DNA from: Closterium sp. NIES-65
Taxonomy: Eukaryota > Streptophyta > Zygnematophyceae > Desmidiales > Closteriaceae
Length of the DNA: 64,000 nt
Reading direction: 5' to 3'
Assembly: GCA_948144175.1 (NCBI GenBank)
Contig: CANXME010000886.1
Coordinates: forward strand, 124,001-188,000
Below the pieces are notes generated by a model. It ran no database searches. It was not told the DNA's origin and was given only the letters and a program-made list of their open reading frames with translations. This document shows positions 435 through 38,300 of the stretch, piece after piece. The position numbers and the translations under genes are program-made. Every line of letters starts with the position of its first letter. The stretch's first letter is position 1.

Positions 435-3400
435 ATGGAGCCGCCAGGACATCCCTACCTAACATATAGAGGCCACAGGCACAGACAGCCAGGAGACATG
501 ATCGCACATTACGATCGCATCCGAGACGAGCTCTTAACGGGTCGGCCTGTATCGGATCAGGGCGAAACTCACAGCCGGAAAAAGCGGCCCAGAACTCTAG
601 CTTCCGACGGCCTTCCGCTCCCGCTCTGGCTCACTAATGTCATCTTCGTTATAGCGTTCGTTCTTTCTAGCTGTTACCTACTCCGCCGGTGGCGCGAGAA
701 GCTGGACTCCTCGGAAAAGCTCCATATTTTATTATGGCGGGACTTAGCGGCCGTCACGCTCGCGATCTGTTCGTTTATCTACTTAATCGGTTTCCTGGGG
801 ATCGGGTATGTGCAAGCGACGGTGGGGCTGAGCGTTCTATCGGACGAAGAGGAAGAGGAAGAGGAGGAGGAGGAGGAGCGGGAGGAGGAGGAGGAAGAGG
901 AAGAATCGTCTAGGAAGCTTCGTAACTGCCAGCACCAAGAGCAGGCTAAGGAGCTTGCTCACCGCTCTCCTTCTTTTAAGTCCTATCTCCAACCTTCGTC
1001 CTTCGAGCCTGAGTGTGCTTCTAAAGCGGTTCCGATTCCATCCGCTGCAACTGTCCCTTCCGTTACAGTCTCCTCTGGTACAATCACGCCGAACACCAGC
1101 ACTGAAAGCTTGAAAACCTTCGTCTTCAAGTCCGACAGTGCATCCTCGTTACAAGACGTCCCGCTGCAAGACCTCCCGGATGACGACATCGCGCGCGCCG
1201 TCGCGCGCGGCGCCATTCCCATGCACTCCCTCGAGGCGCAACTCGGCAACACCCTCCGCGCCGCCGCGGTCCGGCGGCGCGCCGTGGAGATTAAAACCGG
1301 GCGGTCCTTAGCCGGGCTCCCGCTGGAGAATTACGACTACGACGTGATCCGCGGCGCATGCTGCGAGATGGTGATTGGCCACGTGACGATCCCCATTGGT
1401 GTAGCGGGACCGTTACTTTTGGACGGAACGGAATTCTTCGTACCGATGGCTACGACAGAGGGGTGCCTTGTCGCTAGCACGAACCGCGGCTGCAAAGCCA
1501 TCTGCGCCGCCGGCGGCGCGCGCAGCGTCGTGCTCCGCGACGGCATGACGCGCGCGCCCGCCGTGCAGCTCCCGTCTGCGGTCCGCGCGGCGGAGCTGAA
1601 GGCGTACGCGGAAAGTCCGCGCAATTGGGCGGAGCTCGCGGAGGCCTTCAACAGCAGCAGCCGGTTCGCGCGGCTGCGGAGCCTCCGCGTGGCGGTCGCG
1701 GGGCGGAACGCGTTTATCCGCGTGGAGTGCGGCACGGGCGACGCGATGGGCATGAACATGGTTTCCAAGGGCACCGCGAGCGTACTCGGCGCGCTGCGGG
1801 ACGCGTTTCCGGATATGCGGGTTGTGAGCATGTCTGGGAATTACTGCGCGGATAAGAAGGCGACTGCCGTCAACTGGATCCACGGGCGCGGGAAATCTGT
1901 CGTCTGTGAAGCCACCATTCCCGGCCACGTGGTACGTTCCTCCCCGCCTTTTTTCCCCCTTACCCCGTTCCCCTCTTCCCCCATTTTCCCAATCTTCCTT
2001 CTCCACTCCCCCAAGCTACCATTCCTGGCCACGTGGTTCGTCTCCCCCCGCCTTCCCCTCCGGTCTACATTTCCATTCCCCATGCCCTCCAGAACCTCCT
2101 GTCCTCCCCACCCCATTGCCCTCCTCACCCCATTGCCCTCCTGACCCCCCTGTTCGTCCCTGGCCGCGTGGTACGTTCCCGTCCCGCTTTATCCCTGCCC
2201 TTTGTACCCACCGCCATCCCCATCCCCCGTCCTCCTCTGTACCCTGTCCGTCTTCCCCTTCCCCTTTAATTTCTCCTGCTCTTCCGCGTGGAATCGGTGC
2301 TAAAGACAACGGTTGCCGCCCTGGTGGAGCTCAACATGGTGAAGAACCTGGTGGGGTCCCCATTGACTCGACCACTCTGCACCCCTCCGTATTCCCGGTA
2401 CCGTCTCCCCTTCTGTTTCCCCTCCCAGGTCGAAACTGTGCTAAAGACAACGGTTGCCGCCCTGGTGGAGCTCAACACCGTCAAGAACCTCGTGGGGTCG
2501 GCTATGGCGGGCGCGGTGGGCGGCAGCAACGCGCACGCGAGCAACATTGTCACGGCGGTGTTTCTTGCAACGGGGCAGGACCCCGCGCAGAACGTGGAGA
2601 GCTCGCAGTGCCTCACGCTGCTTGAGGCCGTCAATAACGGTGCCGATCTGCACGTGTCTGTGACCCTCCCCGCGATTGAAGTGGGCACTGTTGGCGGAGG
2701 AACGTTCCTCGCACCGCAGGTGAGAAAGCAAGGAAGCTTCCTTGCACCGCAGGGAAGAGAGCGGGGTTGGGTAGAGAGCTGAGGGCAGGACCCCGCGCAG
2801 ATCGTGGAGAGCTCGCAGTGCCTCACGCTGCTGGAGGCCGCGAATGGCGGCGAAGATCTCCATGCGTCGGTGACCCTGCCTGCGATTGAAGTCGGCACGG
2901 TTGGCGGAGGAACCTTCCTCGCACCGCAGATGAGCGTAAGGGTGGGAGGTGGTGGGTAGGTGGCAGAGGTCAGTGTTGTTTGTGCCAATGGTGTGTTCCT
3001 GGCGACGTGGAAGGACCGAGCTGACTTCTGAGTCAATAGTGTTTGTCTTGACTCAGGGCAGAGGGCAATAGTGTTTGTCTTGACTCAGGGCAGAGGGCAA
3101 TAGTGTTTGTCTTGACTCAGGGCAGAGGGCAATAATGTTTGTCTTGACTCAGGGCAGAGGGCAATAGTGTTTGTCTTGACTCAGGGCAGAGGGCAATAGT
3201 GTTTGTGCCAGTGGTGTTTGTGCCCATGGTGTGTTCCTGGCCGCGGGGCAGGACCCCGCACAGAACGTGGAAAGCTGGCGCGGGTGGTGGCGGCAGCAGT
3301 TGCCTAAACTCTTATTCTCCTCCCCGCTGCTCTACTTCCCCCTCCCACAGGCAGCAGCGCTGGCCATGCTGGGCGTGAAGGGCGCGCACAAGACAGAGCC

Positions 3401-4064
3401 AGGGCTGAATGCGCAGCAGCTGGTGCGCGTGGTGGCGGCAGCAGTGCCTTTAACCCCTTCTCTTCTCCCCTCCGCTCCCCCTCCCCCTCCTCCACGCGGC
3501 AGCACTGGCCCTGCTGCGCGTGAAGGGCGCGCAAGACACAACCAGGGGCAAACGCGCAGCAGCTGACGCAGCAGTTTCCTAACCCTCTCGTCCCCCCACG
3601 CTCCCCCACGCTTCCCCACGCTCCCACAGGCAGCAGCGCTGGCCCTGCTGGGAGTGAAGGGCGCGCACAAGACGGAGCCAGGAGCGAACGCGCAGCAGCT
3701 GGCGCGGGTGGTGGCGGCAGCAGTGCTGGCGGGGGAGCTCTCCCTCTGCTCCGCCCTCGCCTCTGGTCACCTCGTGCAGGCGCACCTCAAATACAACCGC
3801 TCTACCCTCAATGCCACTGCTGCTTCTGCTGCCATCACTGCTGCTGCTGCTGCTGCTGCTGTTGGTGCTGCCGCTGCTGCTCCTGCAGTCGCTTCTTTTG
3901 TTTCTGAAGCTGCTGGTGCTGGAGTTGCTGCTCCTGTTGCTGCTGCCTCAGCTGGTGCGGCGGTGTTCAGGGCAGTGGCGAGTGAGTCGGACTGCAGTGA
4001 GAGTGGTTCTAGAAGAGGCAGCAGTGGGTCACTTGAGGGGTTGTGTATGGCGGACAAGTGCTGA
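435..4064 (+). CDS. HMGR: HMG-CoA reductase, 3 exons
   Basis: This is 3-hydroxy-3-methylglutaryl-CoA reductase, which makes mevalonate at the ER membrane for sterols and isoprenoids. Exons are 435-1931, 2429-2719 and 3630-4064, all joined in phase 0, giving 740 residues. Two membrane segments (about 63-83 and 103-125) are followed by a linker with an unusual run of about 20 mostly Glu residues (138-157), then the catalytic domain from about 240. Catalytic residues are visible: Glu342 in TTEG, Lys474/475 in [11 protein letters not shown], Asp550 in GQDPAQNV, and His648 in [11 protein letters not shown]. The NADP-binding motifs DAMGMNM and GTVGGGT are present. The C-terminus carries an Ala-rich extension from GCT repeats that the plant family normally lacks. 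Both introns and the 3' flank hold partial copies of neighbouring exon sequence. The identity is certain. Which exon copies are used is inferred from frame and splice sites. Confidence 0.95.
1915..2180 (+). repeat. three copies of the exon 1 / intron 1 junction
   Basis: The last bases of HMGR exon 1 plus the donor (GGCCACGTGGTACGTTCC) recur at about 2028-2046 and 2163-2179 inside intron 1, each followed by pyrimidine-rich DNA. The second copy has lost the donor (GTTCGT); the third keeps GTACGT. These look like local tandem duplications. Confidence 0.7.
2286..2358 (+). repeat. partial copy of HMGR exon 2 start
   Basis: This segment encodes [20 protein letters not shown] and a few more residues, nearly identical to the start of exon 2 at 2429. 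It has no AG acceptor in front and runs into non-homologous DNA after the GS codons. It is a truncated tandem duplicate inside intron 1. Confidence 0.8.
2783..2929 (+). repeat. copy of HMGR exon 2 second half
   Basis: About 49 codons match exon 2 from GQDPAQ to GTFLAPQ. It differs from the true exon at several codons (for example QIVESS for QNVESS). The splice donor after CAG reads ATGAGC instead of GTGAGA, and there is no acceptor at its left edge, so it is unlikely to be spliced as it stands. Confidence 0.8.
3038..3197 (+). repeat. 32-bp minisatellite in HMGR intron 2
   Basis: Five near-perfect 32-bp units start at 3038, 3070, 3102, 3134 and 3166, followed by a partial sixth. The unit holds TTGACTCAGGGCAGAGGGC. 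It lies between the decayed exon 2 copy and the exon 3 copies. Confidence 0.9.
3231..3306 (+). repeat. chimeric scrap of HMGR exons 2 and 3
   Basis: The left part repeats the [10 protein letters not shown] stretch of exon 2. It is fused, out of frame, to the GCGGGTGGTGGCGGCAGCAG stretch of exon 3. This suggests repeated local copying rather than one simple tandem duplication. Confidence 0.65.
3351..3576 (+). repeat. two copies of HMGR exon 3 start
   Basis: Copy one (3351-3449) keeps a good acceptor (CCCACAG) and reads in frame for 33 codons ([18 protein letters not shown] and on) before running into pyrimidine-rich DNA. Copy two (about 3497-3576) is more decayed, with a lost acceptor and a frameshift. 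The true exon 3 starts at 3630 after the same kind of pyrimidine tract and CCACAG. Confidence 0.8.
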
Positions 4065-4120: not shown

Positions 4121-4773
4121 CTGTGTTCAGGGCTGTGGCGAGTGAGTCGGACTGCAGTGAGAGTGGGTCTAGAAGGGGCAGCAGTGAATCACTGGAGGGG
4201 CTGTGCATGGCATACAAGTGCTGAGCTCACCTCTGTTGCTGCTGGTGTGGTGGTGGTGCTGCTGTCGCTGCTGGTGTGATGGTGCTGCTGCTGTTGCTGC
4301 TGGTGTGGTGGTGGTGCTGTTGCTGCTGGCGGTGGTGGTGGTAGTTGCGGGTGGGGCTGTGTTGAGGGCTGTGGCGAGTGAGTCGGATTGCAGTGAGAGT
4401 GGGTCTAGGAGGGGCAGCAGTGAATCACTGAAGGGACTGTGTATGGCGGACAAGTGCTGAGCACACTGCTTCTGCTGCTGGCGGTGCTGCTGGTGCTGCT
4501 GGCGGTGCTGCTGGTGGGGCTGTGTATGGCGTACAAGTGCTGAGCTCGCTGCTGGTGCTGCTGGTGTGGGTGGTGGTACTGCCGCTGTTGCTGCTGGTGT
4601 GGTGCTGCTGTTGCTGTTGGCGGTGGTGGTGGTGCTGCTGCTGTTGCTGTTGGCGGTGGTGGTGGTGGTGCTGCTGTTGCTGCTGGCGGGGGTGGTGGTG
4701 GTGCTGCTGTTGCTGCTGGCGGTGGTGGTGGTGGTACTTGTGGGTGGGGCTGTGTATGGCGTACAAGTGCTGA
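4121..4773 (+). repeat. tandem copies of the HMGR C-terminal tail
   Basis: The last about 104 bp of exon 3 (3961-4064, coding for the tail ending CMADKC and a TGA stop) is repeated at 4121-4224 and 4356-4460. Short tail-only copies lie at about 4518-4543 and 4746-4773. Between copies are CTG/GCT and GGT triplet runs. Each long copy can be read to the same TGA in frame with an Ser-rich tail. Copies one and two contain a GTTCAG acceptor-like site; copy three has GTTGAG. Confidence 0.85.
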
Positions 4774-8198: not shown

Positions 8199-9772
8199 AT
8201 GATTCCCGGAGAGATTTCTCTCTGTCCGAGCTCCGGCTTTCCCATGGAGACGAACCAGAAGCTCGGTTCCAAGAGGCCTTGCGCAGACGCGTTCGACGCA
8301 GCAGACGACACCATGTTCTCCTTCGGTCAGACCGGAGACCTCTTTGATCGAGGGCTCGACCAACTAATGACGTACATGGGCGAAATGGGGGGGATTGCCG
8401 AGAAGGATAACAAAGCGCTCCCTAACGCGGACAGGCTTCTGCCGGATGATGTTCCCGAGGAGTCGGTTGGGGAGGGAGGTAGCCATGACAATTTCGGCAT
8501 GTTCGACTCAAACCCGTTCGGTGCCGTGAATCTCGCTGCGTCGTTTCCGGAAGGCTCGTGCGAGCCGCAGCTAGTCCCGTGCGCTCAGAAGCCGGCTGCG
8601 ACGACGACGACGACGAACGACGTCGCCGACTCAGTCGCAGACGGAGCGTTCGGATCGCCTGACGCGTTCAGCTCGCCGGACGGCTTCGCCTCGGAGGATT
8701 TCAATCTGTCGTTCGGGATGGATGACGTGGATGCGATGAACCAGCAGGACCTTCGTTACAATCTCATGCTCAGAGGAGCGGGCCTTGCAGGTACGCAGTG
8801 AAGAATAGCTATCCTACTCATTCTCATTTTCACTCTCGTGTCTCCCATACGTTCTTGCTCCTGTTTCCGTTTCCTGTTACCACGAAGATTTGTGGCTAAC
8901 TCGTTATTTTCCTTTATTCTTTGTTTTTTCTGTAACGCAGAGCATTCTACCGCGGATGCTCCGTCTCATCCCAAGATGGAGTTCCCGGAGTACCCCGCGC
9001 ATCACCCGATGAATCATCCGATGTATCCGCCGCACATGCCGCTCTACTATCCGGGAATGCCCACCATGCCGGTTCCCTACTACGGCATGCCGTACCCTCC
9101 CTTCGCGTACAACCCGTGGATGACTCCTTATTCCTCGCCCTTCATGCCTCCTCAACAGTAAGTATGCGTCGCGTAATCGTTCATTTACGAATTTGCTCAA
9201 GCGATGTCAGAGGTTTCTTTGTGCGGCCGACGGGAAGTCATGAGCCATGAACATCTATACTTCTCGAAAAGAACTCAAAAGCGGTGAATGGAAACTAACG
9301 ATCGCTTTCTTTTTCTACTCTTCTGCAGTGCCATGCCTGGAACTAGCGCAATGCCCACCGACCCTGCAGCCATCGCGCGTCAGCGTCGCCTTGTCGCGGA
9401 TTCCGTGCGCGGAAAGCGTCGACGACACGCACACAATGCCTCCTCGCAGCTCCCTTCCGCCGCATCTTCCGCCATGCCGTCCGTATCTGGTTACGGCCAC
9501 CCTTTCCCATCCTCACCATCCATGCTCCCCTGGACCCACGTCAATCCCGAGGCTGCTGACTCAGTGAACACCGCTCCCCCTTCGCCGTTCGTTCCTGCTG
9601 CTCCCCTGCCGCCGTTCTCCCCCGCCGTCGTCCCGTCGTCTCCCAAAGCCGTCGCGTCTCCCGCACGGTGCGCCTCGCCTGTCCCCGCATCATCCCCCAC
9701 TGCGGTGGGAAAAGGCGGCGCGGGGAAGGCTGCGGCGAAGAGTCCGCTGGGTAGATCTGCTCCTCCTGCTCC

Positions 9773-9804
<32 letters not shown>

Positions 9805-10211
9805 ATGGCAAATCTCCTGCTGTGAAGTTCTCAGCTGAAGCGGATGTCGTTGCTGCTCCAGCCGCTACCCTGCCGGTTTCGCCTGTCCTTAAGATTGAAG
9901 AGGACGTGTTCGTTCCTACGGCTACCGCTCCCGTTATCCCCGCCATTGCCGCTCCTGCGGGCGGGCAGCAAGCTAAGGGAGGGAAGGCTGCGGCGAAGCA
10001 GCAGCGGGATGAGAGGCGCGTGAAGCGGCTGCTGCGGAACCGCGTGAGTGCGCAGCAGGCGCGGGAGCGGAAGAAGAATTATGTGTCGGAGTTGGAGCAG
10101 CGGTGCGAGACGGTTGAGAGGAGTAACGCGGAGATTGAGGGGGAGATTGCTGCGCTGATGGCGGAGAACGAGCGCCTGAGGCAGTCAATGCGGAGAGCCA
10201 TCGGGGTCTGA
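8199..10211 (+). CDS. HY5: HY5-like bZIP transcription factor, 3 exons
   Basis: A nuclear DNA-binding regulator. Exons 8199-8790, 8941-9157 and 9329-10211 join in consistent phase (1, then 2) and give 563 residues. The bZIP domain is C-terminal (about residues 496-560). Its basic region KRLLRNRVSAQQARERKK is the signature of the HY5/HYH (group H) family, which drives light responses in land plants. A short leucine zipper follows. About residues 85-87 read VPE in an acidic setting (PDDVPEES), resembling the COP1-binding motif of HY5. The middle of the protein is low-complexity: a Pro/Met/Tyr-rich exon 2, a poly-Thr run, and a poly-Ala run from GCT repeats at about 9774-9803. It is much longer than land-plant HY5 (about 170 residues). 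The start is the first ATG in the open frame. Family assignment is strong. The COP1 link is inference. Confidence 0.92.
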
Positions 10212-11784: not shown

Positions 11785-14700
11785 ATGGGACCTCGTCGTA
11801 GGGCTGGTGTTGCAACGGACGTGGATTCGCCACGTGGCGCTGAACAGAAGGCGGATGCAAGCTCAGTAGATTCGAGACAGGTTCGACCCAAGTCCAGCGA
11901 TGATGGTCGAGGCAAGCATAGCAGCGTCGCAGATCGTCGCCGAGCTGGTGGCATTGTGGTCGCGACAGCGGCGGCGTCGCGAGTAGTTATGCTGATACTG
12001 TTCTTCGCCTTCGACGCGATTCTAGAAGATTACGACACGTCAGCACGCATCTATTCCCCGTGTCGTCCGCGCCACGTATCCCCCGGAAATTCGTCTGCAG
12101 TAGACCGCACTCTGACACTCCTAGGAATTTCCCATGCCAGTAACGAAATATCTGACGAATCAACTCTCGTGACTGTCGCTACGGGTCGTATAGGCTTCGT
12201 TACCACATTTTCTCACGCGACTGAGTGGATCGTACGCCACTTCCCCCCTGAATTGTTTTCCACATCGCTAATTCAAAACTACCCAGGTAAATAACACCTC
12301 GCCCGCCATACCCCTGCTATCATTTACACCTGGTTTGACACGACTCACATATACACATTTTTCGTGTTTAAACCCAAAACCTTCAACCCCGAACCCTCTT
12401 CTCCCCCGGCAGCCCGCAACAGCATCGTACAGGGGAGAACATTCTGGTGGTGTGGGATTCGGTTCGGTCTTCGCCTTCCACCGCAATTCCCTCTGTGGCT
12501 GCATGACACCCCCTCCCCCCCACGCCAACAACCCCATACCCCACCCCACACACCCAATCCAGACCATAGCAGCATGGCACAGCGAACGTTGGAGGGCTTG
12601 GTGGTGTGGGATTTGGTTCGGTCTTCTTCCACCGCATTGCCCTCTGCGGCTACGAGTTTGAACATGCCCACGCCTTCTTCCCCACCCTGCCTTCCCCTAT
12701 GATAACCCCTTTCCTCCTTGCCCCTCTGCCCCCCTAATCAGGTCATAACAGCACCGTAAATCAAGCATTAGAGAGCCTGGTGGTGTGGGATTCGGTTCGG
12801 TCTTCTTCCACCGCATTGCCCTCTGCGGCTACGAGTTTGAACATGCCCACCCCTTCTGTCCCCACCCTGCCTTTCCCTATGATAACCCCTTTCCTCCTCG
12901 CCCCTCTGCCCCCCCTAATCAGGTCATAACAGCACCGTACAGCAAGCATTAGAGAGTGTGGTGGTGTGGGATTCGGTATTTTTCCACCGCATTGCGCTCT
13001 GCGGTTACGAGTTTGAGCAGGCCTACGCTTTTTTCCCGCTCCTGCCCTTGCTCATGAGGCTCCTTGCCACTGTCACACCCTGTAAGGCCTACGCATTCTT
13101 GTCCTCCCTGCAGCAGCTTACTCCCTCTCCCTCTCTCCTCTCAATTCCTCCTCCCATGTCCTCCTCCCATTCTTGCCTCCTGTATTTTCTCCTCCGCTAC
13201 TCCCTCCCCTTTCCTCTTCTTCGTTCGTCCTCCCTTGGCCTCCTACCCATCCTTCCTCTCTTTCCTCTCGCTCTGTTCCCTCAGTCCGTCTGCTTCTCCC
13301 CATCCTTGGAGCACCAGCCACGTTCGCCCTCGTGGGACTGCTGCTCTCCAATACCACTCTCGCTGCAGCAGCTTACTACCTCTCCTTCCCTCCTCTCCTT
13401 CCGCCCCCTGTCCTCCTAGTTGTGTGTTTTCAGTTCGTCCCCTTCTCCCCGTCCTTGGAGCACCAGCCACGTTCGCCCTCGTGGGACAGCTGCTCTCTAA
13501 AATGCTGCTTTCGTCGCAGCAGCTTACTGCCTCTCCTCCCCTGTCCTCCTGTCCTTGCTCCCTTCCCTTCTGTTCCCTCTCCCCTCAATCTTCTCAGTCC
13601 GTCTGCTTCTCCCCATCCTCGGAGCTTCAGCCACAATTGCCCTTGTGGGACTGCTCCTCTCAAATGCCGCTTTCGTTGCAGCAGCGTACTGCCTCTTCAG
13701 GTATTTTTAGTCGACTCAAAAGATGGATTTGGAGTCGACGGTTGAGTCGATTTTTTAGTCAACTCAAAAGCTTACTGTCTCTTCAGGTATTCTTCTCTAT
13801 CGGATGAGGGCCAAGTGAGTGAGTGAGTGAGTGAGTGTGAGTGATCGATATCTGCCCTTGAGTCAACTCAGATCCTGGCCTTCAAGTGTGCTCTTCTTGA
13901 TTGTGCTTCATGCCTTGTGCGGGCTGACAAAGTGTTTTGAGTCGATTCAAAACATGACAACGTGTGTTCTCTTCTCTGACATGTGCCGAGCCTCCTTTCT
14001 TCCCACTCAGGCGCTGCAGATTCTTGAAAGCACGCCTGCTGCTTCTGAGCTTCCTGCAAATCCATTTTCGAGTGTGCTCCTCTTGACCGTTCTGTGGATT
14101 CAAGTGCGCTCTTCTTGATCTCGTGCTTAATACCCTGTTCAAGCAGACAAAGTGTGTTCTCTTCTCTCTGACGGGTGCCTAACCTCCTCTCCTCCTGCTC
14201 AGGCGCTGCTCTTGAACTTCCTGCAAACCCGTTATTTTTTCTCTCTCTTTCTCTCTCTCTCTGCAGGCTGACCGAGTGTGTTCTCTCCGACACGCGCTTG
14301 GCCCTCCTCTCCTCCCTCTTCTTCTGCCTCACTCCCTCCTCCACTTTTTACTCTGCCATGTAAGTTGGGAGACTGGTTGTGTGTGTTTGTGTGAGAAAGA
14401 GGGAGAACGGGCATGCTGCGCCTGCTTGCCAGCTCTCCTCCCTCCCTCTTCTTCTGCATCACCCGCTCCTCCACTTTTTACTCTGCTATGTAAGTGAATG
14501 AGTCCACGGGAACGAGTCTGAGGAAGTGAGTGTGAGAGTGTGGGTGAGGGAGTGTGTGTTTGTGTGCGTGTGAGAGGGGGAGTGGGCATCCGTGAGAGGG
14601 TGGGGGAGAGAGAGTCAGGGGGAGGGGAGAGTGAGAGGGAGAGTGCATATTAGAGGGGGATATGTGTCTTTGCGTCCTTCTCTTTCCCACATCCCCCACC

Positions 14701-16014
14701 TCCCCAACCCACTTGTCCTGGCCGCACCACCTCATCCCAACTCACCCCACCCCACCCCATCCGACCCCACCACACCCCTACCTAAACCACCCCTCCCCTT
14801 GACCCCAACAGCTACTCCGAAAGCCTATTCGCTCTGCTCTCCTTTGCCGCCATGTGGCGCGTTGTGAGTGGCCGATGGTTCTTGGCATCCCTCCTCATCG
14901 CCCTCTCAGCAGCAGCTCGCTCTAATGGCGTCCTGCATGCGGGTTTCTTCCTCTTCTCACTGCTGCAGGTATGTGTACCATCTGCACACATGGTGCTACG
15001 TGCAAACTTGATAGATCCCTCATCGCCCTCTCATCACCAGCTCGCTCTAACGGGGTGCTGCACGCAGGTTTCTTCCTCTTCTCGCTGCTACAGGTACATG
15101 GTACGGTGGGTTTCGCATGGTGCATGGGGGTGCACATTGTGCGTTGTGAGAGGCCGATGATTTTCTGCATCCCTCCTCATCGCCCTCTCAGCAGCAGCAC
15201 GCTCCAACGGCGTCTTGCACGCTGGCTTCTTCCTTCTCGCCTCACTTCAGGTACGTGGTGTGTTTTTGGCGGGGTTACAGGCCAGTAACCACCGCACACG
15301 CACATGGTATGGGAATGCCCAATCCTTAACTAATGGTGCCTTCAGCAGCACCTTTCTTTAAGGTGCTCTTGGCAAGACCTTGTTTCTTTGAATTGCTCTC
15401 AGCAGCACCTTTCTCTGAGGTTCCAATCCAATGGTGTCCTACACTCGGGCTTATTCCAATTCGCCTCCATGGAATCAACAGGAAGTTGGAAAAAGAGGGC
15501 AGCACAGCACACGTATCACGTCTCTCACTCCTCCTTGAGGCATCATTGCCCCTCGTCCTCCTTTTTCTGCCACTGCAGTTGCTGCAGCGGCTGTTCAATG
15601 CTGTTACGCCACAAGGGGATGAAGAGCTGCAAGGGATCTGGTTTTTGAGAATTCTCAAAAACCATTCTGAGAACTCTCAAAAACCATTCTGAGAATTCTC
15701 AAAAACCATTTTTGAGAACTCTCAAAGACTGGCACACGTCTCACAAGGTGTCGCTCTTCTCTTCCCTTCCCTCCACCCCTCCGCCCCCCCCCCCCTCAGA
15801 CAGCAGGGTCCCTCATCCTGCCTCTCCTGCCACGGCAGCTGCTTCACCAGCTGTTCAGTGCAGCCAAGCAAGAGGGGAGGGAACCAAGAGAGCGGCACAC
15901 ATCTTACAAGTCAACAGAGAGGCAGGCAGACAGAAGAGCGTCAAGAACGGAGGTGACAGGCCAAATTGCGCCGTTTTTGGAAGGAAAGTGGCAGCTGTGC
16001 CGCACAAGGTGAGC

Positions 16015-16081
<67 letters not shown>

Positions 16082-17062
16082 TGCGTGCGAGCGTGCATGC
16101 GTGTGTGCGTGCGTGCGTGCGTGCATGTGTGTGGGTGAGTGTTTCTCCTTTTTTAAGCACCATTTTGTTCCCTTTCTTCCCCAGCACCCACTTCCACACT
16201 ACACCCCACTTCCTCCCTGTTACCTCTCCCTCCCTTCCCCTTCGTTTCCCCTCATAATTTATTTCGCACCCAAATTCCTCCCCATTCTCCCTCCCCACAT
16301 CCTTCTGCTGCGTCCTTTCCCTTTTCCCTCCTTCCACTTCCTCTCCTTTTCCCTCTTCCTTTCGCTCCAAACCTTCACCCTTTCACGCAAAAAACTTTGT
16401 TTTCCCTTTGTTGCTCCCCCCTGCCCTCCCCCCTCTTTCACCCCTCCCTCCCCTTCTCCCTCCCCCCCACCCCCTCCCCTTCTTCCCCCCCTCAGGCTCC
16501 TCCCCATCCTCCTCTCCACCGCCCTCTGCTGCCTTCTCTCCTTCTCTCTCCTCGTCTCCCTTCAAGCCTTCGCATTCACCCAGTTCTGCCTCCCTGCTGC
16601 AAGCACCAAAAGCAACCTGGACACTGAAACCCCTCAAGACGTCCCCCCTTGGTGCCTGGACTCGGTTCCCTACATCTACGGCTATGTGCAGCGCAAGTAC
16701 TGGTGAGAGAGAAAGAGACACCCTTCACTTGACTTTCTGAGACAGGACGACCCTAGCTGTCTCCCCCCGGTGCCGCGACTCCCTTCCCTACATCTACAGC
16801 TATGTGCAGGGAAAGTACTGGTGAGTAGCATTTGACACAGCTTTTGAGGCGCCTCAAATCTGGTTCTTATACCCCACGATATGAGGTGCCTCATAAGTAA
16901 TTACCCACAGCTTCAGGTGGTTCAGTCACCCCTTGGTGCGTCAATTTGGTTCCACACATGGGGTGGGTGAACCACCTGAAGCTGTGGGTAATCACGGCCA
17001 TGTGCAACGCATGTACTGGTGAGGCACAACGGATGCATTCGCTTCCTGCCCTCCCGCTCTCC

Positions 17063-17100
<38 letters not shown>

Positions 17101-17200
17101 TTCTGATGCTTTTTATCCGTTTGCTGAAGCAATTAGTGACTAGCAAACAGAAAGCACCACTCCTTGTCCCTTCTGCCCCCTACCCCCTGCAGGGACGAGG

Positions 17201-17231
<31 letters not shown>

Positions 17232-18953
17232 GTTTTGTTTTGTTTTGTTTTTTTTTTTCATTTTGATTCCTTCCAGCTGAAGCAGCTCCCCAACTTCCTC
17301 CTAGCAGCACCCACCCTCCTCCTCGCCCTCTCCGCCATCCTATCCTTTGCACTCACCCGCCCCCTCCTCTCCTTGTCGCCCCTCTCTGCCCGCCCCCTAT
17401 CTCCCTGCAGGGATGTCGGATTTCTTCGCTACTTCCAGCTGAAGCAGCTCCCCAACTTCCTCCTAGCAGCACCCACTCTCCTCCTCTCCCTCTCCGCCAT
17501 TCTATCCTTCGCTCACACCCGCCCCCTCCTCTTCCTCTCTCTTGGATTCATCTCCTCTCCCTCCGATCACCATTGCCTTCTCTTCCTTCCACCCTCCAAC
17601 CACTCAAAAGCACGGGAGCAGGAGGAGGAAGGGGAGGAAGAAGGGGAGGAAGAAAGGGAGGAAGAAGGGGAGGTGGAGTGGAGAAAATGTGACCACTGGT
17701 GTAGATCCAGGGGTTTTTATTCCGCTGCTGCTCTTCCATTCTTGCTGCAGCTGCTGTTCATGACAGCAGTGGCAACGTTGGTGATGCATGTACAGGTGAG
17801 ATATAATTCCCACAGCCCCAACCTCAGGATTCCTTTTCTTGTGAGTTTCAGATGGCCACTCATTCTCCTCCTCACCTCCCCTCTACTGGTTCCTGTCCCA
17901 TCTCCCCACATATGCAAATACCTTTTTTATTTTTTTACATAGGACCCAGGGGATTCTCTACAAATTACAAATCCCGCGAAAAACGCTAGGGTGATCATTA
18001 CAGCGGCAACACTTTTTTAAGACCTGTTATATCTAATTTTCATTTATTAACTTGAGAAGTACCGTGTACAATTGAATTTGGGGGGGGAGGGGGGGGGGGG
18101 GGAGGAGGAGGAGGGGGGGGAGGAGGAGGAGGGGGGGGGGGAGGAGGAGGAGGGAGGGGGGGGGTCTTGTATTTGTACTGATGAAAACCACCGATGTGTG
18201 TACAACTCGTGCAACTGGCGCGTCAGATCAAATCTCTGACGCGGTGGATGTGTCAAATTTCAAGTCTGGCACAAAAACCGCATCAGAATTCAAATCAGCT
18301 CACCCTGAAAGCTGACGCACTGGATATTTTCATATACTGCATGCAACAAAAGGGGGGTCCTTCAATTGTCAATAGCAAAAGGGGCGCCTCTAAAATACCT
18401 GCCAAAATAAGAGTCTCATCTCCGCGAACAATTCTCGGGAGACTCTCTTTCCGGAAGTTTCTATGTACGGGAGAATACGTTACCAATCAGTCTCAGTCTG
18501 TCCTCCCACCCAACCCCCCACCCTCCTTTCCCCCCTCCCCTCGCCACACCTCACAACCCCCTCCCCTCTGAGCTACAGGTGGCGACTCGCTTTCTCTCCT
18601 CCTCACCTCCTCTTTACTGGTTCCTGGCCCATCTCTTCACATTGGCACACACCGTGCCAAGCATTCTCTGTCTGTCCCTCCCCTCCCTGCCTCCCTCTTC
18701 CCTCCTACCACCGCTCTCCCCTTGTGAGTTTCAGGTGGCGACTCGCTTTCTCTCCTCCTCACCTCCTCTCTACTGGTTCCTTGCCCATCTCCTCACATCG
18801 GCAAATAGCACGCTCTCTAAATCCGCCCGCCTATCTTCTACGAATGAGGATCACAGGTGGGAGTTGTTTATGATAAGGGCATGGGTCGGTGCATCATTAG
18901 GTTATGCAGTGATTGGCTCCTTGCTTTTCATCAACTTCTATCCCTTCACCTAG
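11785..18953 (+). CDS. PIGV: GPI mannosyltransferase 2 (PIG-V), 9 exons
   Basis: An ER multi-pass membrane enzyme that adds the second mannose to the GPI anchor from dolichol-phosphate-mannose. Exons chosen: 11785-12286, 12923-13081, 13599-13701, 14267-14359, 14812-14968, 15839-16008, 16496-16702, 17411-17795 and 18735-18953. All phases agree and give 664 residues. Family signatures in order are: VVWDSVFF with the conserved Trp-Asp of the first luminal loop and YEFEQAYAFFPLLP (exon 2); FCLTPSSTFYSA joined to IYSESLFALL (exons 4-5); ARSNGVLHAGFF (5); FTQFCLP and PPWCLDSVPYIYGYVQ (7); GFLRYFQLKQLPNFLLAAP and MHVQ (8); VATRFLSSSPPLYWF and the terminal NFYPFT (9). Exon 6 is the least certain, placed by phase and splice sites. 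Exon 8 carries a Glu-rich insert. Every exon after the first has extra partial copies nearby. Confidence 0.93.
12412..12870 (+). repeat. three extra copies of PIGV exon 2
   Basis: Copies start at about 12412, 12563 and 12742, each after a pyrimidine tract and AG. Each keeps the VVWD codons. Copies two and three carry a 5-bp excess (TCGGT) after GATTYGGT that shifts the frame before the FFHRIALCGYEFE part. Copy one is shorter and ends at a stop. Only the fourth copy, at 12923, reads through to a donor. Confidence 0.85.
13285..13530 (+). repeat. two extra copies of PIGV exon 3
   Basis: Copies start at 13285 and 13434, each directly after a CAG acceptor, and encode a LLLPILGAPATFALVG type segment as in the true exon at 13599. 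The first reads in frame well past the homologous end. A short scrap of the exon end with its GTATTC donor also recurs at about 13768-13790. Confidence 0.85.
13920..14495 (+). repeat. partial copies around PIGV exon 4
   Basis: The 5' half of exon 4 (GCTGAC..GTGTGTTCTCT) recurs at about 13920-14000 and 14140-14200. The 3' half with its donor (TTTTTACTCTGCTATGTAAG) recurs at about 14431-14495. The copies lie on both sides of the true exon at 14267-14359. Confidence 0.7.
15010..15475 (+). repeat. three partial copies of PIGV exon 5 end
   Basis: Copies end at 15093 (donor GTACAT) and 15250 (donor GTACGT); both still encode a SNGVLHAGFF type stretch and end in CAG before GT like the true exon at 14968. 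A third, weaker copy lies at about 15415-15470. Confidence 0.85.
15585..15650 (+). repeat. partial copy of PIGV exon 6 start
   Basis: After a GCAG acceptor the segment encodes LLQRLFNAVTPQG, close to LLHQLFSAAKQEG at the start of the chosen exon 6 (15839). It ends near GTTTTTGAG-type palindromic DNA. Confidence 0.55.
15645..15730. repeat. short palindromic repeats GAGAATTCTC
   Basis: Four units of about 24 bp built on TTTTGAGAATTCTCAAAA or GAGAACTCTC lie in tandem inside a PIGV intron. Confidence 0.85.
16019..16136. repeat. (GT)n then GTGC-rich microsatellite
   Basis: About 22 GT dinucleotides are followed by GCGT and GTGC tetranucleotide runs, just after the exon 6 donor. The long Cys/Val or His/Thr open frames here are repeat artefacts. 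Confidence 0.95.
16745..17022 (+). repeat. two extra copies of PIGV exon 7 end
   Basis: Both copies (about 16760-16821 and 16925-17022) resemble the PPWCLDSVPYIYGYVQ codons and end at TACTG before GTGAG, so the donor is kept in all three. The second is split by a 25-bp inverted repeat. Confidence 0.8.
16900..16992. repeat. perfect 25-bp inverted repeat (hairpin)
   Basis: Arms 16900-16924 and 16968-16992 are exact reverse complements (core CCACAGCTTCAGGTGGTTCA) with a 43-bp loop. The loop holds part of a duplicated exon 7. Confidence 0.9.
17068..17262. repeat. poly-C and poly-T tracts
   Basis: A run of about 33 C (near 17068-17100) and T runs near 17205-17230 and 17250-17258. The T tract interrupts the extra copy of exon 8. 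Lengths in the assembly may be unreliable. Confidence 0.85.
17188..17380 (+). repeat. extra copy of PIGV exon 8 start
   Basis: CTGCAG followed by GGACGAGGA, then the poly-T tract, then a near-exact copy of QLKQLPNFLLAAPTLLL codons (17268-17380). The true exon at 17411 follows another CTGCAG. Confidence 0.85.
17848..18662 (+). repeat. two extra copies of PIGV exon 9 start
   Basis: One diverged copy follows GTTTCAG at about 17850. One good copy starts at 18576 after CTACAG and encodes VATRFLSSSPPLYWFLAHL. The chosen exon starts at 18735 after TTTCAG. The copy at 18576 is open in frame right through to the true stop, so it could serve as an alternative acceptor. Confidence 0.85.
18080..18167. 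repeat. G-rich tract
   Basis: Runs of G broken by AGG triplets on + inside the last PIGV intron, with high potential for G-quadruplex folding. Confidence 0.8.
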
Positions 18954-19080
18954 GTTTGTTTCCGAGCAGTTGTCTGGCATGACACAGGCAGGTGAGGCGA
19001 CTTTTGAGTTGACTCAAATGTCAACTTTTATCCCCTCACTTAGGTTTGTTTCCGAGCAGTTTTCTGGCTTGACACTGGCA
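18936..19080 (+). repeat. duplicated PIGV 3' end
   Basis: The sequence coding for the last residues plus 3' flank (ACTTCTATCCCTTCACCTAG and GTTTGTTTCCGAGCAG) recurs about 83 bp later at 19023. The copied stop is TAG in place. Confidence 0.7.
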
Positions 19081-19384
19081 GTCACCCGGTTTGCCTTTTG
19101 AGGCGCCTCAAAACGTTTTCTGGGATGACACAGGCAGGCACACAGAGTATAGCATATATAGAAAAAGCGATACATGAAGGGGAAAAGTAGGCAGAGAAAC
19201 CCGAGTGCTAATAAATACTGACTAGTCCAGGATCAAGCACCCACAAGTACAGAGCCTTTCTCCATTATTTTGCAGTTTAGATTGTGATGTGTGGTTATGT
19301 GAGCGGAGTGAAAGCAGGTTATGTGAGAAGGGAGGAGGCTTATGTGAGGATAATGAGGAGATAATGTTGGAGGAATCAAGGGTT

Positions 19385-19665
19385 ATGTAAGGAGTGAGAT
19401 GGGTTGTCATGCAAGACGAGGAGTACGGAGGTCATGCGGGTGGACGGGAGTTATGTGAGAGGAGGGAAGGGGGTCATACGAGAGGAGGAAAAGGGGTCAT
19501 GCGAGAGGAGGGTCTGCTTTTGAGTCGACTCAAAGGAAAGGAGTTATGTGAGAAGAGGGAAGGGGGTCATGCGAGAGGAGGGGAGGGGGTCATGCGAGAG
19601 GAGGAAAGGGGGTCATGCGAGAAGATAGAAAAAGGTTATGTGAGAGGAGGTACTAGATGATAGAA
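19385..19665. repeat. purine-rich minisatellite
   Basis: Imperfect units of about 22-25 bp built on GGTCATGCGAGAGGAGGA. It is interrupted by the palindrome TTTTGAGTCGACTCAAA at 19515-19531. Confidence 0.8.
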
Positions 19666-19847
19666 AAGAAGGATGGAGGAGAGAAGGGGGGTCATGTGAT
19701 AAAAGGAAGATCATGTGAGAAGAGACGTACTCAGCTCAGCGTCTGCCCCTGACCACCTTCTGTTAGCCACAGAAGTCAAGAGATTAAAGACGTAGGAGCT
19801 CCATGCCATGGCCGGAAGGAGCGTGGCTGATGTCAGCTTGCTTTACA

Positions 19848-19963
19848 CCCTTAGGACCCCCTCAGGACCCCATTAGGACCCCACTAGGACCCCATTAGGA
19901 CCCTCCGGACCCTTCGGACCCTCAGGACCTTTAGGACCCTTAGGACCCTTAGGACCCTCAGGG
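19848..19963. repeat. TTAGGACCC-type short tandem repeat
   Basis: About a dozen 9-11 bp units of the form (C/T)AGGACCC(C). It does not match a telomere repeat. Confidence 0.85.
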
Positions 19964-21970
19964 TTGCGCCTCCTCCGTTAGTGCCGACTCAAAGACCATT
20001 AGGATGGTGTACCAGCAGTCATGGATTGTCAGTTGATTTTTTAGATGCCTCAAAGAAGTCAGCTTGCTCAGGACCCTGCCGCCTGAAATGCGGCATTTCC
20101 TCTGTTAGACCCGACTCGCACGATGAATCGGTAGTCATGGATTGTCCGCTGGATTCAGCTGCTTGGAACTTTCTCATCAGGTCTCGCTTCACTGTAGAGT
20201 ACATGCTGATCCGACGGCCGATGGGACTCGCCAGCTTCATTGGAGCTCCAGGACAGGATCTCGACCGTTGATGGTGGGACTTGTTGATTGGTGTGTTAGT
20301 CGTCAAACCAATGTCTGAAACGAAAACAAGAAGCTGTGTCAAAGATTAACATGTATGAAAGAAAGATGATATTACTAAACGTTTAATTAATGATAAATGA
20401 TTAAAACGCGTACTTAATGAGTACGTCGTAGTAAAGGCACTACTATCTTCGCTTCGACGCTGGCTCTGAGTCGTCGGCTGGCTCGATTCCCGACTCAGGA
20501 AATAATCCATGTTCGCCGGTATAAGAGAAATTTCCAGCTTCTGCTTCATCGTCGTCCGAAGCCGCTTTGGAGCTGAATCACGAAGAAGATGCAGAGAATG
20601 GCTCCTGCGGCAGGAGACAACTTCCCAAAGAACGGAACTGAATCACGAAGAAGTAAAGGTCGACTCAACATTCTGCCGCGCGTATCCTTCAGGGTCATGT
20701 CACAGCTGGCACCGAGCTACTACTTGTACGGTGGCTCTCCGCCGCATCTCTAGTAAAGCTCTCGTTACCGCACGGAAGGAGATTGAGGGGGATTCCTTAC
20801 AGAATAGTCCAACATTGAATTGGGCCCAAGATATCTCGCATGTTCGCCATGCCTGAGCACCTATGTTAGGGGGTCTTTAGCGTACAGATAGTACCACAAA
20901 ACCCGAGTACAGAAAATTCAGCATTAAGCAGGAAATCACGTGACACGAAACCTAAAGACATACACAGACGAATGTCGTGAAAATTCCGGAGCTGGCCACT
21001 GAATTTAGAACTGCTGTTCCTCCACGTTGGCTGTTCTAGTGCTTATGCTCTGTATTCACGCTTATTCCTACCGATTTGTGTAATTTGCGGGCGTGAAATC
21101 CTACAAAAAAAATCGCAGCCATAAGTAGAAAATGAGCTCCGTTATAAATATGTAACAGTAAACGGTCAAACGTTAACAAACACCAGAACTGTACAAGAAG
21201 GAAGCAGACAACTGTTCTACTGTGAGAACAAAGAGAGTCCTTCAGATTTCACACAGTTGTCCCTAAGTATAGTACACCCTCATTCTCACCTCTATCACCG
21301 TCGCGCGCACTGTGTACAGTGCTCGGAGCTGGCGCGATGGTGCCCTTAGCCATTTCCCAGGCAAATGTCCAGGTTGAGACAAAACAGGGGGGAGGTGGCA
21401 GAATCCTTTGTAGCACATTCCCCAAGAACCACAGGTGGCACGAATCATCGGAAGTCAACATCACAATGTAGTGGGTATCGGTTTGGTCTTATTTTTGACC
21501 AAAATCGGTCTCTCTAACTTAAATTGGATCTTTTTTGGACCTTTTTTGGTGCCTGATTTAGGACCAATTTTGGTGTGGCTGCAAACCTGAAATTGGGCCT
21601 AGAACTAGGGGAAATTCGGCCAAAATTTGTTAGACCAAGATTTCCCACACAAAAAACCAAAATTGGTCCAATTTTATTCTAATTATGGCACCACAAGTCA
21701 CTCCCATCGCACCTGCAAATTGAGTTATTATTTGTACTAAAGGTATTTTGGGAAAATATATATATTAAAATTCCTGCATACAATAATGACTACTACACTA
21801 CATGACACTACACTCAGCTTAATGAACACTTCAGGACTCCATCTCTACATGGTTGCTCCCAACTCACTACTTGCTGCTGCCCCTAGATCCAAGTACAGCC
21901 CGAGTTCCGCCTACTCTCCTAGCTCCATTTGAAGCTACTGCTTTCCTGTTACCACCTTTACTCCACCCCG
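19964..21970. other. no gene recognised
   Basis: Short open frames occur (the longest at 20509-20856 on +) but match nothing I know and lack supporting splice structure. At about 21480-21680 there are several scattered copies of an AAATTGGTCC/GGACCAATTT word, an AT-rich self-complementary stretch that might be a decayed MITE. Confidence 0.4.
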
Positions 21971-29579: not shown

Positions 29580-31262
29580 CATGCAGCAATTCTACTTACA
29601 ACAACGTTGACGGCTTACGCACTTTTAGTGAATTCACCAACCTACTCTGCTTCGCATGCTCTGATTTTTGGAAGAGGCACTCCCTGCACTATTTCTAGAT
29701 CCCTCACAAGTTTCCAGGTCTTTCCAAAAAGGTTAGATAGGTATTTCATGCCTTGCTCTGTATGCAGCAGCTCTACTTGCAGCGATGTTGCCTGTTTACG
29801 CACTATTAGTGAATTCACCAACGTCTAATTCTCTGCATGCTCTGATTTTTGGATGAGGCACTCCTTGCACTAGTTCTAGATCCCCCACAAGTTTCCAGGT
29901 CTTTCCAACAAGGTTAGATATGTATCTCATGCCTTGCTCTGTATGCAGCAGTTATACTTCTAGCGACGTTGCTTGCTTACGCATTGTTAGTGATTTCACC
30001 AACCTCTACTGCTCCGCATGCTCTGATTTTTGGATGAGGCACTCCTTGCACTAGTTCTAGATCTCTCACAAGTTTCCAGGTCTTTCCAACAAGGTTAGAT
30101 ATGCATCTCATGCCTTGCTCTGTATGCAGCAGTTATACTTCTAGCGACGTTGCTTGCTTACGCATTGTTAGTGATTTCACCAACCTCTACTGCTCCGCAT
30201 GCTCTGATTTTTGGAAGAGGCACTCCCTGCACTATTTCTAGATCCCTCACAAGTTTCCAGGTCTTTCCAAAAAGGTTAGATAGGTATTTCATGCCTTGCT
30301 CTGTATGCAGCAGCTCTACTTGCAGCGATGTTGCCTGTTTACGCACTATTAGTGAATTCACCAACGTCTAATTCTCTGCATGCTCTGATTTTTGGATGAG
30401 GCACTCCTTGCACTAGTTCTAGATCCCCCACAAGTTTCCAGGTCTTTCCAACAAGGTTAGATATGTATCTCATGCCTTGCTCTGTATGCAGCAGTTATAC
30501 TTCTAGCGACGTTGCTTGCTTACGCATTGTTAGTGATTTCACCAACCTCTACTGCTCCGCATGCTCTGATTTTTGGATGAGGCACTCCTTGCACTAGTTC
30601 TAGATCTCTCACAAGTTTCCAGGTCTTTCCAACAAGGTTAGATATGCATCTCATGCCTTGCTCTGTATGCAGCAGTTATACTTCTAGCGACGTTGCTTGC
30701 TTACGCATTGTTAGTGATTTCACCAACCTCTACTGCTCCGCATGCTCTGATTTTTAGATGAGGCACTCCTTGCACTAGTTCTAGATCTCTCACAAGTTTC
30801 CAGGTCTTTCCAACAAGGTTAGATATGTATCTCATGCCTTGCTCTGTATGCAGCAGTTATACTTCTAGCGACGTTGCTTGCTTACGCATTGTTAGTGATT
30901 TCACCAGCCTCTACTGCTCCGCATGCTCTGATTTTTGGATGAGGCACTCCTTGCACTAGTTCTAGATCCCCCACAAGTTTCCAAGTCTTTCCAACAAGGT
31001 TAGATATGTATCGCATGCCTTGCTCTGTATGCAGCAGTTATACTTCTAGCGACGTTGCTTTCTTACGCATTGTTAGTGATTTCACCAACCTCTACTGCTC
31101 CGCATGCTCTGATTTTTGGATGAGGCACTCCTTGCACTAGTTCTAGATCCCCCACAAGTTTCCAGGTCTTTCCAACAAGGTTAGATATGTATCTCATGCC
31201 TTGCTCTGTATGCAGCAGTTATACTTCTAGCGACGCTGCTTGCTTACGCAGTTATACTTCTA
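29580..31262. repeat. 181-bp satellite, 9 units plus a partial
   Basis: Monomers start at 29580, 29761, 29942, 30123, 30304, 30485, 30666, 30847 and 31028, with a partial unit at 31209. The period is exactly 181 bp throughout. Monomers share GCATGCTCTGATTTTTGGA and AGTTTCCAGGTCTTTCCAA. The segment at about 29650-29900 recurs almost unchanged 543 bp (three monomers) later at about 30193-30440, so there is a three-monomer higher-order repeat. Confidence 0.97.
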
Positions 31263-35300: not shown

Positions 35301-38300
35301 GGAGCAATGGGAAAGCAGGGTCCCTTTCATAGCGCCAGTGGGGCACGTGCTGCCAACAGCCATTTGCAGCATGAAATCCTCATCCCCACTCCCCTTCCTA
35401 CCTCCTCCCAATCTCCCACTGACCCTTAGGTGTTGCAGCAGGGGGTAAATGGGTTCCCTTTAACATCGCCTCCTGTTCTAACTATGCCATGTCTTTGTCT
35501 ACCCCTTTGTACCTTGGTCACCGATCCTCTCTATACCTTTTAGTGGCCCAATTTTAGTTGCTATGTTTTTCTTATTGCGGCAGGACAACCTCTCATCAAT
35601 CAACATGGAACATATTGTACGCACTCCAGAACAGCAACAATGGGTGATGTCTCAGGCAGAGGGGGAAACATCTGATGATGACAGCACTCTATCAAAATAC
35701 TCAACGTTTGACGTTGAGGTGAGCTCTTGCATGCGTGTTCATGGATGTGCTCGTTGGGGTGAGGTGCAAAGATCCAGATGAATCATAGTCTGACTTTAGT
35801 TTATGGACATCATTAGTGTTTCGTATGACGTTAATTTTGGGGATTTGTGATTTCTGAACAGACTTTGTAACTTGTGTTGCCCATGTAATGTTGTATGTGT
35901 GTGCTTTCCCATAACTTACTTTTATACTGCTCCCCATTGTTTGGCAGTGCGCACTGTGGCAATGGGCTATAAATGGTCATCCATGGGCGAACCCCTATCT
36001 AGCAGTTATGCCAGATATCATGCATATGGCGGATTTGGGGATACTGGACCACATTATCAAGTGCATTCGCACGGCAGTGCCAAGGGCGGTGAAGAAGCTT
36101 GATAAGTACGTCCCTAATCTGCTGGTTAAGTGCTGTTGCCATGGCTGCATGCATCGACCTGCCAGCACTTACTCAGTCTAGAAATTTGGGCGGACTTGTT
36201 TCGATACTCTCATTAAGTTTCCTTTAACAACCACTCCAGCCACTCCCCCTGAACAGGAGGCTGCAAATTGTTCAAGAAGCCACCCGTATCAACTTGATGC
36301 GGTTCCCGGAGAAGGAATACTTTGAAAGCAATGCTACGGTCCCAGCATTCCAACACAGGGCAGTCATGCAGGTAAGGATGAGGGCCAGCCATGTTTTGGA
36401 ACTTTGATTTAGTGAGTGATTTCATGCCTCTTTCACACCACGGTCACACGCAGTCTTATTTACCTTCCACCGTTCCCCTACCCCCCCACCGTAAGTCTGA
36501 AATTTCGCCCACAAAGTTGTTTCTTTTTGTGATCATGTACGCGCACATTGTTATCCACAGCCATGACTTTGACTGGAATATCTTGCACCCATGTCCCATC
36601 CACACATCATCCCACCCTCCTGCCTTTTCTCTCTTACAACCCTACATGATGCCGCGACACGCTTATTGTCACCCACAAAGCCTGCCTGACATTTCTACCA
36701 CGTGTGTCACATCCCCACAACACCCCACAGCAGTCCTTTTCTCCATTCCCATGGCCAATATGCTTAGGCAAACCCATGAGCCCTCATGTCACATCCACAT
36801 GATTGCAGGTTTTAATATTCCTAGTGGCAGATATTTTGGATGCACCACAACTCGAGGCGATACGCGCGTACCTTGACTGGTATAGCTGCTGTAACAGCCA
36901 CATTCATACCGAGGCCAGCCTACGAGAGCTACAGCGGAAAGTAGGCAGGTATGCTAATGCGCATGCAAAGACCACTTGCACAAGGGTGACCTAGGCTCAA
37001 TGTGGGGCCGTTGGAGTGCCCAGTTATGTCATTGGCGTAATGGCATGCCTGTTTTTCCAAATTCCCCTTTTTGACACAGGCTCGTGAAGCTATTGGTGAA
37101 AGCATTTCCCGACCAAAAATCAGAGTGGAACTTGATCAAAACGCACCTGATGACGCATTTCTTTCCTGCCATTCGAAGGGCAGGTTATGTGCAAGAGTAT
37201 AGCACGAACCTATTTGAGCACCTGCACAGCGTTCTCTTGAAACAGATATACCGCCGTACAAACAAAAGAGACGCCGACAAACAGATAATGAAGCGTCACG
37301 AACAGCGACTCGACTTGTGGGAGGACGAGGAGTCGGACCATGGCCGAGAAACCGCTATGGCAAAGGTATGGACCCGAGTGTAACTCGTGCACTAGCATTT
37401 GTAATGGTGCGATTTTCAGCACTTATTGTGTCTTACGTACAGGCCATTGAAGAAGGAATCCGTGTGATGACCAAGGAATCACACTTCTTCCCGGTAGAAC
37501 CAACCGGGGCCACCGAGTCTACGAACGATTTCGTGAAGGGGTGGAGCGAGCAGCACCCCGAGGCACATGCCGCATTCAAAGGGGCACTAACACGTGCTGG
37601 CCTGACGCCAAGCAAGGTTCGGGTAAGGAGCTCATGCGTCATACTCACTGGATCACCCCATGCATGCTCATTACGTTCTTTATGTCAATTAATATGGCAT
37701 CCTAATCCTTCGATTCCACCCATTGTATCTTTTGCAATGTGTTTACATCGCAATGGAGAGATACTACTACACACAGCAGGGTCCTCATTTGTGCACTAAT
37801 CCCGCCTTCCCTCATCCATCCTCCCTCTCCTCCCTCCCAATTGATCCACTCTACTTCACTCCCCTCCTCCCTCCGTCACTGCCACACTCTCCCCTATCCC
37901 CCTCTGCCCCTTAGGTGAAGAACATTGTGAGAACAAGCTGATTTAGCCCTGATGTGTCTGCTAACCAGCCCAAGCAGCATCAATCCTAATGCCCTTCCCC
38001 ATTCCTCCATCGTTCCTTAATGCGTGTGCTCACCCAGGAACTTGATCATGGGCCGAGGCACCTTAGAACAAGACCCTAAACTCCTTACGCCCTACCAGTT
38101 TGCCCCTTCATCCCTACCTCCCTCTGCCCTCCAGATGCTAAACATGGGGCAAAGGGCACTGGATTGAATCCACCTCTGCCTCACGAGCTCCCACCAGGCC
38201 ACACGAGCATAATCTCCTCACACCCAGCCACCTTCCCCCTTCATCCCTACCTCCCTCTGCCCTCCAGATGCTAAACATGGGGCAAAGGGCACTGGATTGA

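Follow-up and report, generated by a model that had tools for sequence, protein, structure and literature searches.

The PIG-V gene of the zygnematophyte alga Closterium sp. NIES-65 raises the question of why the introns of a gene should hold many small pieces of its own exons, most of them carrying an exon edge. The gene lies in a 64-kb stretch of contig CANXME010000886.1 (positions 124,001 to 188,000 of the forward strand; assembly GCA_948144175.1), hereafter called the window. The pieces are most probably relics of repeated small tandem duplications that occurred in situ, each crossing one splice site. Direct observation covers the copies, the polarity and decay that they show, how old they are compared with changes in the live exons, and their occurrence in a second gene and in predictions from other contigs and strains.

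The live gene is a PIG-V of the plant type, a sugar-transfer gene, and its re-modelled nine-exon path comprises 677 codons, instead of the 664 codons that a first-pass annotation of the window had assigned to the full frame. The 677-codon protein matches the Pfam family at 1.3e-98. Among the matches listed from a large protein database, the best five PIG-V homologues come from Closterium strains, followed by those of land plants.

Each of exons 2-9 is accompanied by partial copies of some edge, located in the adjoining introns or in the 3' flank (Table 1), which bears out the first-pass description of copies at every exon after the first; no copy of exon 1 was found in the PIG-V locus. Self-BLAST of the locus detected 18 nearby pairs (E<=1e-4, at least 40 bp, less than 2.5 kb apart), while 40 dinucleotide shuffles in 300-bp blocks gave no pair in 37 cases and one pair in 3. 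The scored set consists of 18 PIG-V copies that were aligned singly; a nineteenth, the very short exon 3 end copy, was read by eye. Two degraded exon 4 starts and one exon 9 3' end are additions to the earlier list, and the exon 4 end, counted there at least three times, is present twice, as the live end and one clear copy, a further probe match being C-rich. The same 5-bp insertion, which breaks the frame, is found in all three exon 2 copies and indicates that a dead copy was itself duplicated again. The exon 8 start copy is identical to the live exon at 99 of 108 positions within 17270-17377. The surrounding intron 7 contains a run of 35 C and, about 100 bp later, long T tracts (17066-17258), which are possible trouble spots for assembly.

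The copies had been thought to occur in one gene, but the neighbouring gene for HMG-CoA reductase (HMGR), about 7 kb from PIG-V, shows copies of the same kind, located in its two long introns and after the gene end. A process specific to PIG-V is ruled out by these like copies in HMGR. The HMGR gene-end copies sit in GCT-rich arrays and are weaker evidence than the other HMGR copies. The coding end of HMGR is repeated several times downstream (4233-4770); its true C-terminus is uncertain, and the arrays resemble others at 41.9-42.9 kb and 60.7-61.3 kb. A bZIP gene located between HMGR and PIG-V yielded no match with six exon-edge probes. Of the three host genes with several exons that were identified in the window, two thus have edge copies. 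Between about 20 and 46.5 kb, a six-frame Pfam scan, which genes without a Pfam match would escape, revealed no further clear multi-exon host gene and gave just weak matches, extensin-like repeats and transposase pieces. Elsewhere, the predicted DUF3172 protein P0241 of strain Naga37s-1 contains 13 residues repeated in tandem, and its NIES-64 counterpart P0251 is without the repeat, which gives a hint of edge copies in a further gene.

When a tandem duplication includes a single splice site, a spare exon start must come to lie upstream of the intact exon, and a spare exon end must come to lie downstream. This arrangement was assessed by taking a 50-nt probe at each of the 30 exon edges in the three genes and searching it against its own gene region at E<=1e-3 (the HMGR exon 1 end probe ran to 1932, one base beyond 1931). 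The 26 matches in introns and flanks comprise 12 START matches upstream and none downstream, and 12 END matches downstream and two upstream. When two C-rich matches, which are probably due to chance, are dropped, 22 of 24 follow the polarity, and both exceptions are near-complete exon 3 copies that keep the acceptor and end 4 nt before the donor. Two further matches overlapping live exons were set aside; exon 2 copy A, the exon 4 starts and the exon 9 end were below the probe threshold and outside the count. The polarity argues for a local tandem origin over random placement. Likewise, only five PIG-V matches outside the gene's own locus were found within the window, all of them C-rich tracts, as expected of local events. 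Similar sequence in many unrelated introns, the mark of introner-like elements, was not seen within the 64-kb window.

Frameshifts are present in the aligned blocks of 11 of the 18 PIG-V copies. The 18 copies differ from the live exons by 105 synonymous and 126 non-synonymous changes, distributed as 65/51/115 over the three codon positions. Two constrained sequences are expected to differ mainly at synonymous sites, and one constrained plus one free sequence would give about the ratio observed. The age of the copies can be judged against five predicted proteins that served as relatives, two of which (P0004 and P0005) are partly alike. With the 56 copy-sites at which the relatives vary excluded, the live exon has the residue of the relatives at 388 copy-sites, and the copy has changed at 74 of these. 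A derived live residue is present at nine copy-sites (eight distinct residues, as two of the nine informative cells are one residue in two copies), and the copy shows the ancestral residue at seven, another residue at one and the derived residue at one. Because the ancestral residue is kept at seven of nine, most of the informative copies predate those changes in the live exons and have not been overwritten since. The evidence favours relics rather than a set of working spare exons.

Such a pattern could arise in a simple way. In a duplication crossing a donor, the first donor would still close the intact exon, leaving the second exon end in the intron; in a duplication crossing an acceptor, the last acceptor would still open the intact exon and the spare start would land in the preceding intron. 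As the intact exon is still spliced after crossing of a single site, such duplications would be tolerated and the introns would grow, whereas duplications within an exon or over a whole exon would harm the protein and be purged. Introns would then lengthen by stacked spare edges, which would decay and at times duplicate again. The spacing of the copies is mostly about 90-310 bp, and the mutational step would be replication slippage or template switching. An inverted repeat in the second exon 7 copy (16897-16995) resembles an inverse copy of the sequence just upstream, and this inverted insert and the nearby palindromes suggest template switching as the mutational source. The palindromes, of the form TTGAG-NNNN-CTCAA with at most one mismatch, number 14 in the window versus 2.6 expected (largest shuffle 7). 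Thirteen of them are located in or just behind PIG-V (13706-20053) and the other at 5932, and four belong to one 22-bp tandem array. Their centres differ even at homologous sites, as in the duplicates at 19004 and 19098, with TTGA and GCGC, respectively.

If splice-crossing tandem duplication produced the copies, the intron sequence next to each copied edge is predicted to be homologous as well. Ten of the 19 predicted intron pairs exceed shuffles at p<0.05, where about one is expected, and seven do so at p<0.01.

Several observations weigh against this interpretation. The other nine pairs do not exceed shuffles, namely both for exon 5, both for exon 7, one for exon 2, both for exon 3, that for exon 6 and that for the HMGR exon 2 start, with exon 6 (p 0.058) and the HMGR pair (p 0.080) close to the threshold. 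In a simpler 70-bp flank test, just 9 of 23 flanks lie above the 95th percentile of mismatched flanks. Pyrimidine-rich tracts leave the intron-pair test little power. Exons 5 and 7 nevertheless constitute a real misfit, because the exon parts of their copies are still 77-88% identical and nothing is detectable past the donor. This misfit could be explained by a fast turnover of intron indels or by breakpoints near the donor. For nine donor-side copies, ungapped identity is 0.86 over the final 20 bases of the exon and drops to 0.31 at +7..+12. Since an open frame was the criterion for choosing the live exon, part of the polarity is built in; the polarity argues against random placement and not for duplicated introns. 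The purging by selection is inferred rather than measured. In addition, residue S279 of exon 4 is common to the live exon and its copy and differs from the relatives, a hint of conversion between the two. A simulation in which random duplications followed the observed spacings bears on both sides. Among tolerated duplications, the share that crosses one splice site was 94% with 160-bp introns and 75% with 250-bp introns, in line with the interpretation, but 37% with the present lengths. The last value implies that the introns were short when hit or that edges were favoured. Targeting of edges is not required if the PIG-V introns began short, because the introns of the copy-free bZIP gene measure about 147 and 174 bp.

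Among the alternatives, it is unlikely that some or all copies are used, either as alternative or decoy splice sites regulating PIG-V or as alternative exon ends. Splice dinucleotides are kept at 15 of 17 checked edges in PIG-V, which would fit such use, but, given how far the copies have diverged at codon positions 1 and 2, about 13 of 17 would be expected (P(>=15) = 0.14-0.31), so that PIG-V shows no clear excess, and HMGR keeps only 2 of 6. Through live sites and kept copy sites, 48 open paths lead to the PIG-V stop, and two of them contain all nine exon peptides: the live path and a 729-codon path in which exon 9 begins at the copy acceptor 18579. From this acceptor, an in-frame read-through into live exon 9 adds 52 codons. 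The first-pass statement that only one path gives a full frame was nearly right, this second complete path being the departure from it. The 18579 isoform, predicted from sequence, is the sole functional candidate found. Public gene predictions also translate copies (P0005 and P0128 of NIES-65, P0001 of strain Yama58-4), although in the HMGR prediction P0121, from a 1,180,382-bp NIES-65 contig, the first three exons are the live ones. An acceptor together with a donor, the feature that mutually exclusive exons would need, is found in none of the 18 aligned PIG-V copies, and non-synonymous changes are not depleted as they would be between two constrained exons. Selected alternative exons as the general case are not supported, in view of the frameshifts, the lack of a strong synonymous excess and the ancestral residues kept by the copies.

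A boundary-targeting process that copies the exon edge with the splice consensus only, as the first-pass annotation had suspected, is improbable. It would account for the exon 5 and 7 copies, which match up to the donor and little beyond, and for the presence of an exon edge in most of the longer copies of the PIG-V locus. Within the limits of visible similarity, the suggestion that copies end exactly at a kept donor is right for exons 5 and 7, but not for the 10 of 19 intron continuations with residual homology. Moreover, with short introns random duplications produce splice-crossing anyway, and the six bZIP edge probes gave no match. Detection would also favour edges, since live exons stay recognisable and intron-only duplicates fade on both sides.

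That the copies are an artefact of assembly or of haplotypes is hardly credible: the available part of PMC10407611 does report much copy-number variation among Closterium strains and assembly from raw long reads with polishing, but the copies are diverged to many degrees and frameshifted, those of HMGR recur in P0128 on a separate 172,754-bp NIES-65 contig (one residue differs where compared by eye), and for PIG-V the exon 4 copy recurs in P0005 and the exon 2 copies in P0005 and P0001. The strains were sequenced in the haploid phase according to the same part of that source. P0005, from another NIES-65 contig, contains an exon 2 copy, an exon 4 end copy that has the same spacer, and repeats of the exon 9 start, and P0001 of Yama58-4 contains an exon 2 copy of PIG-V. 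Copies in predictions from other contigs indicate that no local assembly fault is involved, and the artefact that the earlier annotation had named as a possible refutation is not supported, as such copies occur in other contigs and strains. The exon 4 copy probably predates the split between two diverged gene versions. The HMGR open frame is 100% identical to P0121 over 88% of the query.

P0005 is 99.7-100% identical to the window in its bZIP part and exact in the exon 2 copy, and by eye it equals the Naga37s-1 protein P0004 in exons 6-7. This pattern, as judged by eye, points to a recombinant or chimeric locus within PIG-V. A diagonal repeat scan flagged 11 of 17 Closterium proteins among the matches listed, most of them for low complexity, and 14 of 343 other proteins at the same threshold. 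Inspection by eye found repeats of folded-domain or exon sequence in P0001, P0005, P0128 and P0241. Among the 12 flagged non-Closterium proteins listed, only P0129, with a very long repeat, scored above 60.

Table 1. Live exons and exon-edge copies of PIG-V and HMGR, and the intervening bZIP gene (window coordinates)
Feature	Position	Strand	Remarks
Live PIG-V gene	11785..18953	+	nine exons, all GT-AG, Pfam PF04188
PIG-V live exons 1-5	11785-12286, 12923-13081, 13598-13700, 14267-14359, 14812-14968	+	
PIG-V live exons 6-9	15800-16008, 16496-16702, 17411-17795, 18735-18953	+	
Exon 2 start copies (three), upstream of exon 2	12418-12498, about 12565-12702, 12742-12882	+	without donor
Exon 3 tail fragment, upstream of exon 3	13104-13165	+	
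Exon 3 copies (two), upstream of exon 3	13285-13383, 13436-13534	+	acceptor kept; end 4 nt before donor
Exon 3 short end copy, downstream of exon 3	13770..13786	+	donor GTATT; seen by eye
Exon 4 start copies (two), degraded, upstream of exon 4	13955-14007, 14143-14195	+	acceptors lost
Exon 4 end copy, downstream	14424..14489	+	donor GTAAGT kept; intron continuation still homologous
Exon 5 end-region copies (two), downstream	15018-15093, 15141-15250	+	donors kept
Exon 5 end-region copy, third, downstream	15396-15462	+	degraded, neither edge
Exon 6 start copy, upstream of exon 6	15541..15626	+	24/86 aligned bases differ
Exon 7 end copies (two), downstream	16751-16820, 16925-17018	+	second broken by inverted insert
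Exon 8 start copy, upstream of exon 8	17193..17377	+	broken by poly-T stretch
Exon 9 start copies (two), upstream of exon 9	17853-17920, 18579-18647	+	acceptors kept
Copy of exon 9 end, stop codon and start of 3' flank, downstream	19021..19112	+	
HMGR live exons	about 435-1931, 2429-2719, 3630 to about 4221	+	P0121 has extra intron in last stretch
HMGR exon 1 end copy	2013-2035	+	
HMGR exon 2 start copy	2288-2357	+	
HMGR exon 2 end copy	2786-2929	+	
HMGR exon 2 inner fragment	3231-3279	+	
HMGR exon 3 start copies (two)	3351-3445, 3496-3575	+	
HMGR gene-end copies (three)	4410-4457, 4511-4540, 4743-4770	+	within GCT-rich tandem arrays
bZIP gene, between HMGR and PIG-V	8313..10211	+	three exons; introns about 147 and 174 bp

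Beyond these genes, the window contains a tandem array of nine 181-bp copies (29581-31250) and two related 133-bp tandem arrays (35009-35460 and 38103-38659); a Plavaka-like transposase piece is located close to these arrays, at about 34.4 kb.

A near-harmless duplication over one splice site would provide a simple and testable reason for exon pieces in introns, and introns could increase in size like a ratchet and keep a record of old exon sequence. Only tentatively can it be proposed that recurrent splice-crossing duplication drives intron growth genome-wide in Closterium, with most exon edges of long-intron genes having spare copies of different ages. If this were true, introns would store ancestral exon sequence like an archive, and some spare edges, for example the acceptor 18579, would form a standing supply of in-frame alternative ends or of donors for conversion. 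The START/END polarity is a cheap test that can be used on any genome. For annotation, three predictions (P0001, P0005 and P0128), and perhaps a fourth (P0241), among the 17 Closterium predictions listed suggest that gene models of this alga can include dead copies as protein sequence.

The first-pass annotation stated that no described process seeds such copies, but related events are on record, namely a boundary-crossing duplication in potato (PMC4974935) and intronic and partial exon duplications (PMC12343006), as given in the available parts of both papers. In the potato RdRp gene, a tandem duplication across an intron-exon boundary was interpreted with the model of Rogers 1989, as cited in that part of PMC4974935. 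As proposed for Closterium, a single intron-exon boundary lies within the duplication, and a piece of exon is left inside an intron. However, one event made a new intron in potato, whereas many events affected the existing introns of two genes in Closterium, and the live path of Closterium needs no new intron. Intron gain by duplication was not found in the live PIG-V path, where the introns contain copies but none starts or ends at a copy. Tandem duplication and intronisation have also been described for fly genes, as the accessible text of PMC2891723 indicates.

Tandem exon duplication can further yield mutually exclusive exons, according to the available portion of PMC9013439. The likeness consists in tandem copies of exon sequence within one gene. 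The Closterium copies differ in that no whole exon with two sites is present among the 18 copies and in that the copies decay. The protein-level constraint that mutually exclusive exons would need was not found in these copies, which show frameshifts and no strong synonymous excess. Among the open-library matches listed, such dense splice-edge copies are not described in the titles and the starts of the abstracts.

A further counterpart is provided by Exonize, with which intronic, partial and inter-boundary exon duplications were counted in 20 genomes (PMC12343006, available part). Like the copies in Closterium, this class comprises within-gene exon copies in introns, degenerate ones included, and the PIG-V exons do align to introns of the same gene, with degenerate copies. 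According to the same part of that survey, such events are generally fewer in lower eukaryotes, whereas in Closterium PIG-V eight of nine exons are affected, several of them repeatedly and with a consistent polarity. The Closterium copies therefore belong to a known kind of event, here in a dense form.

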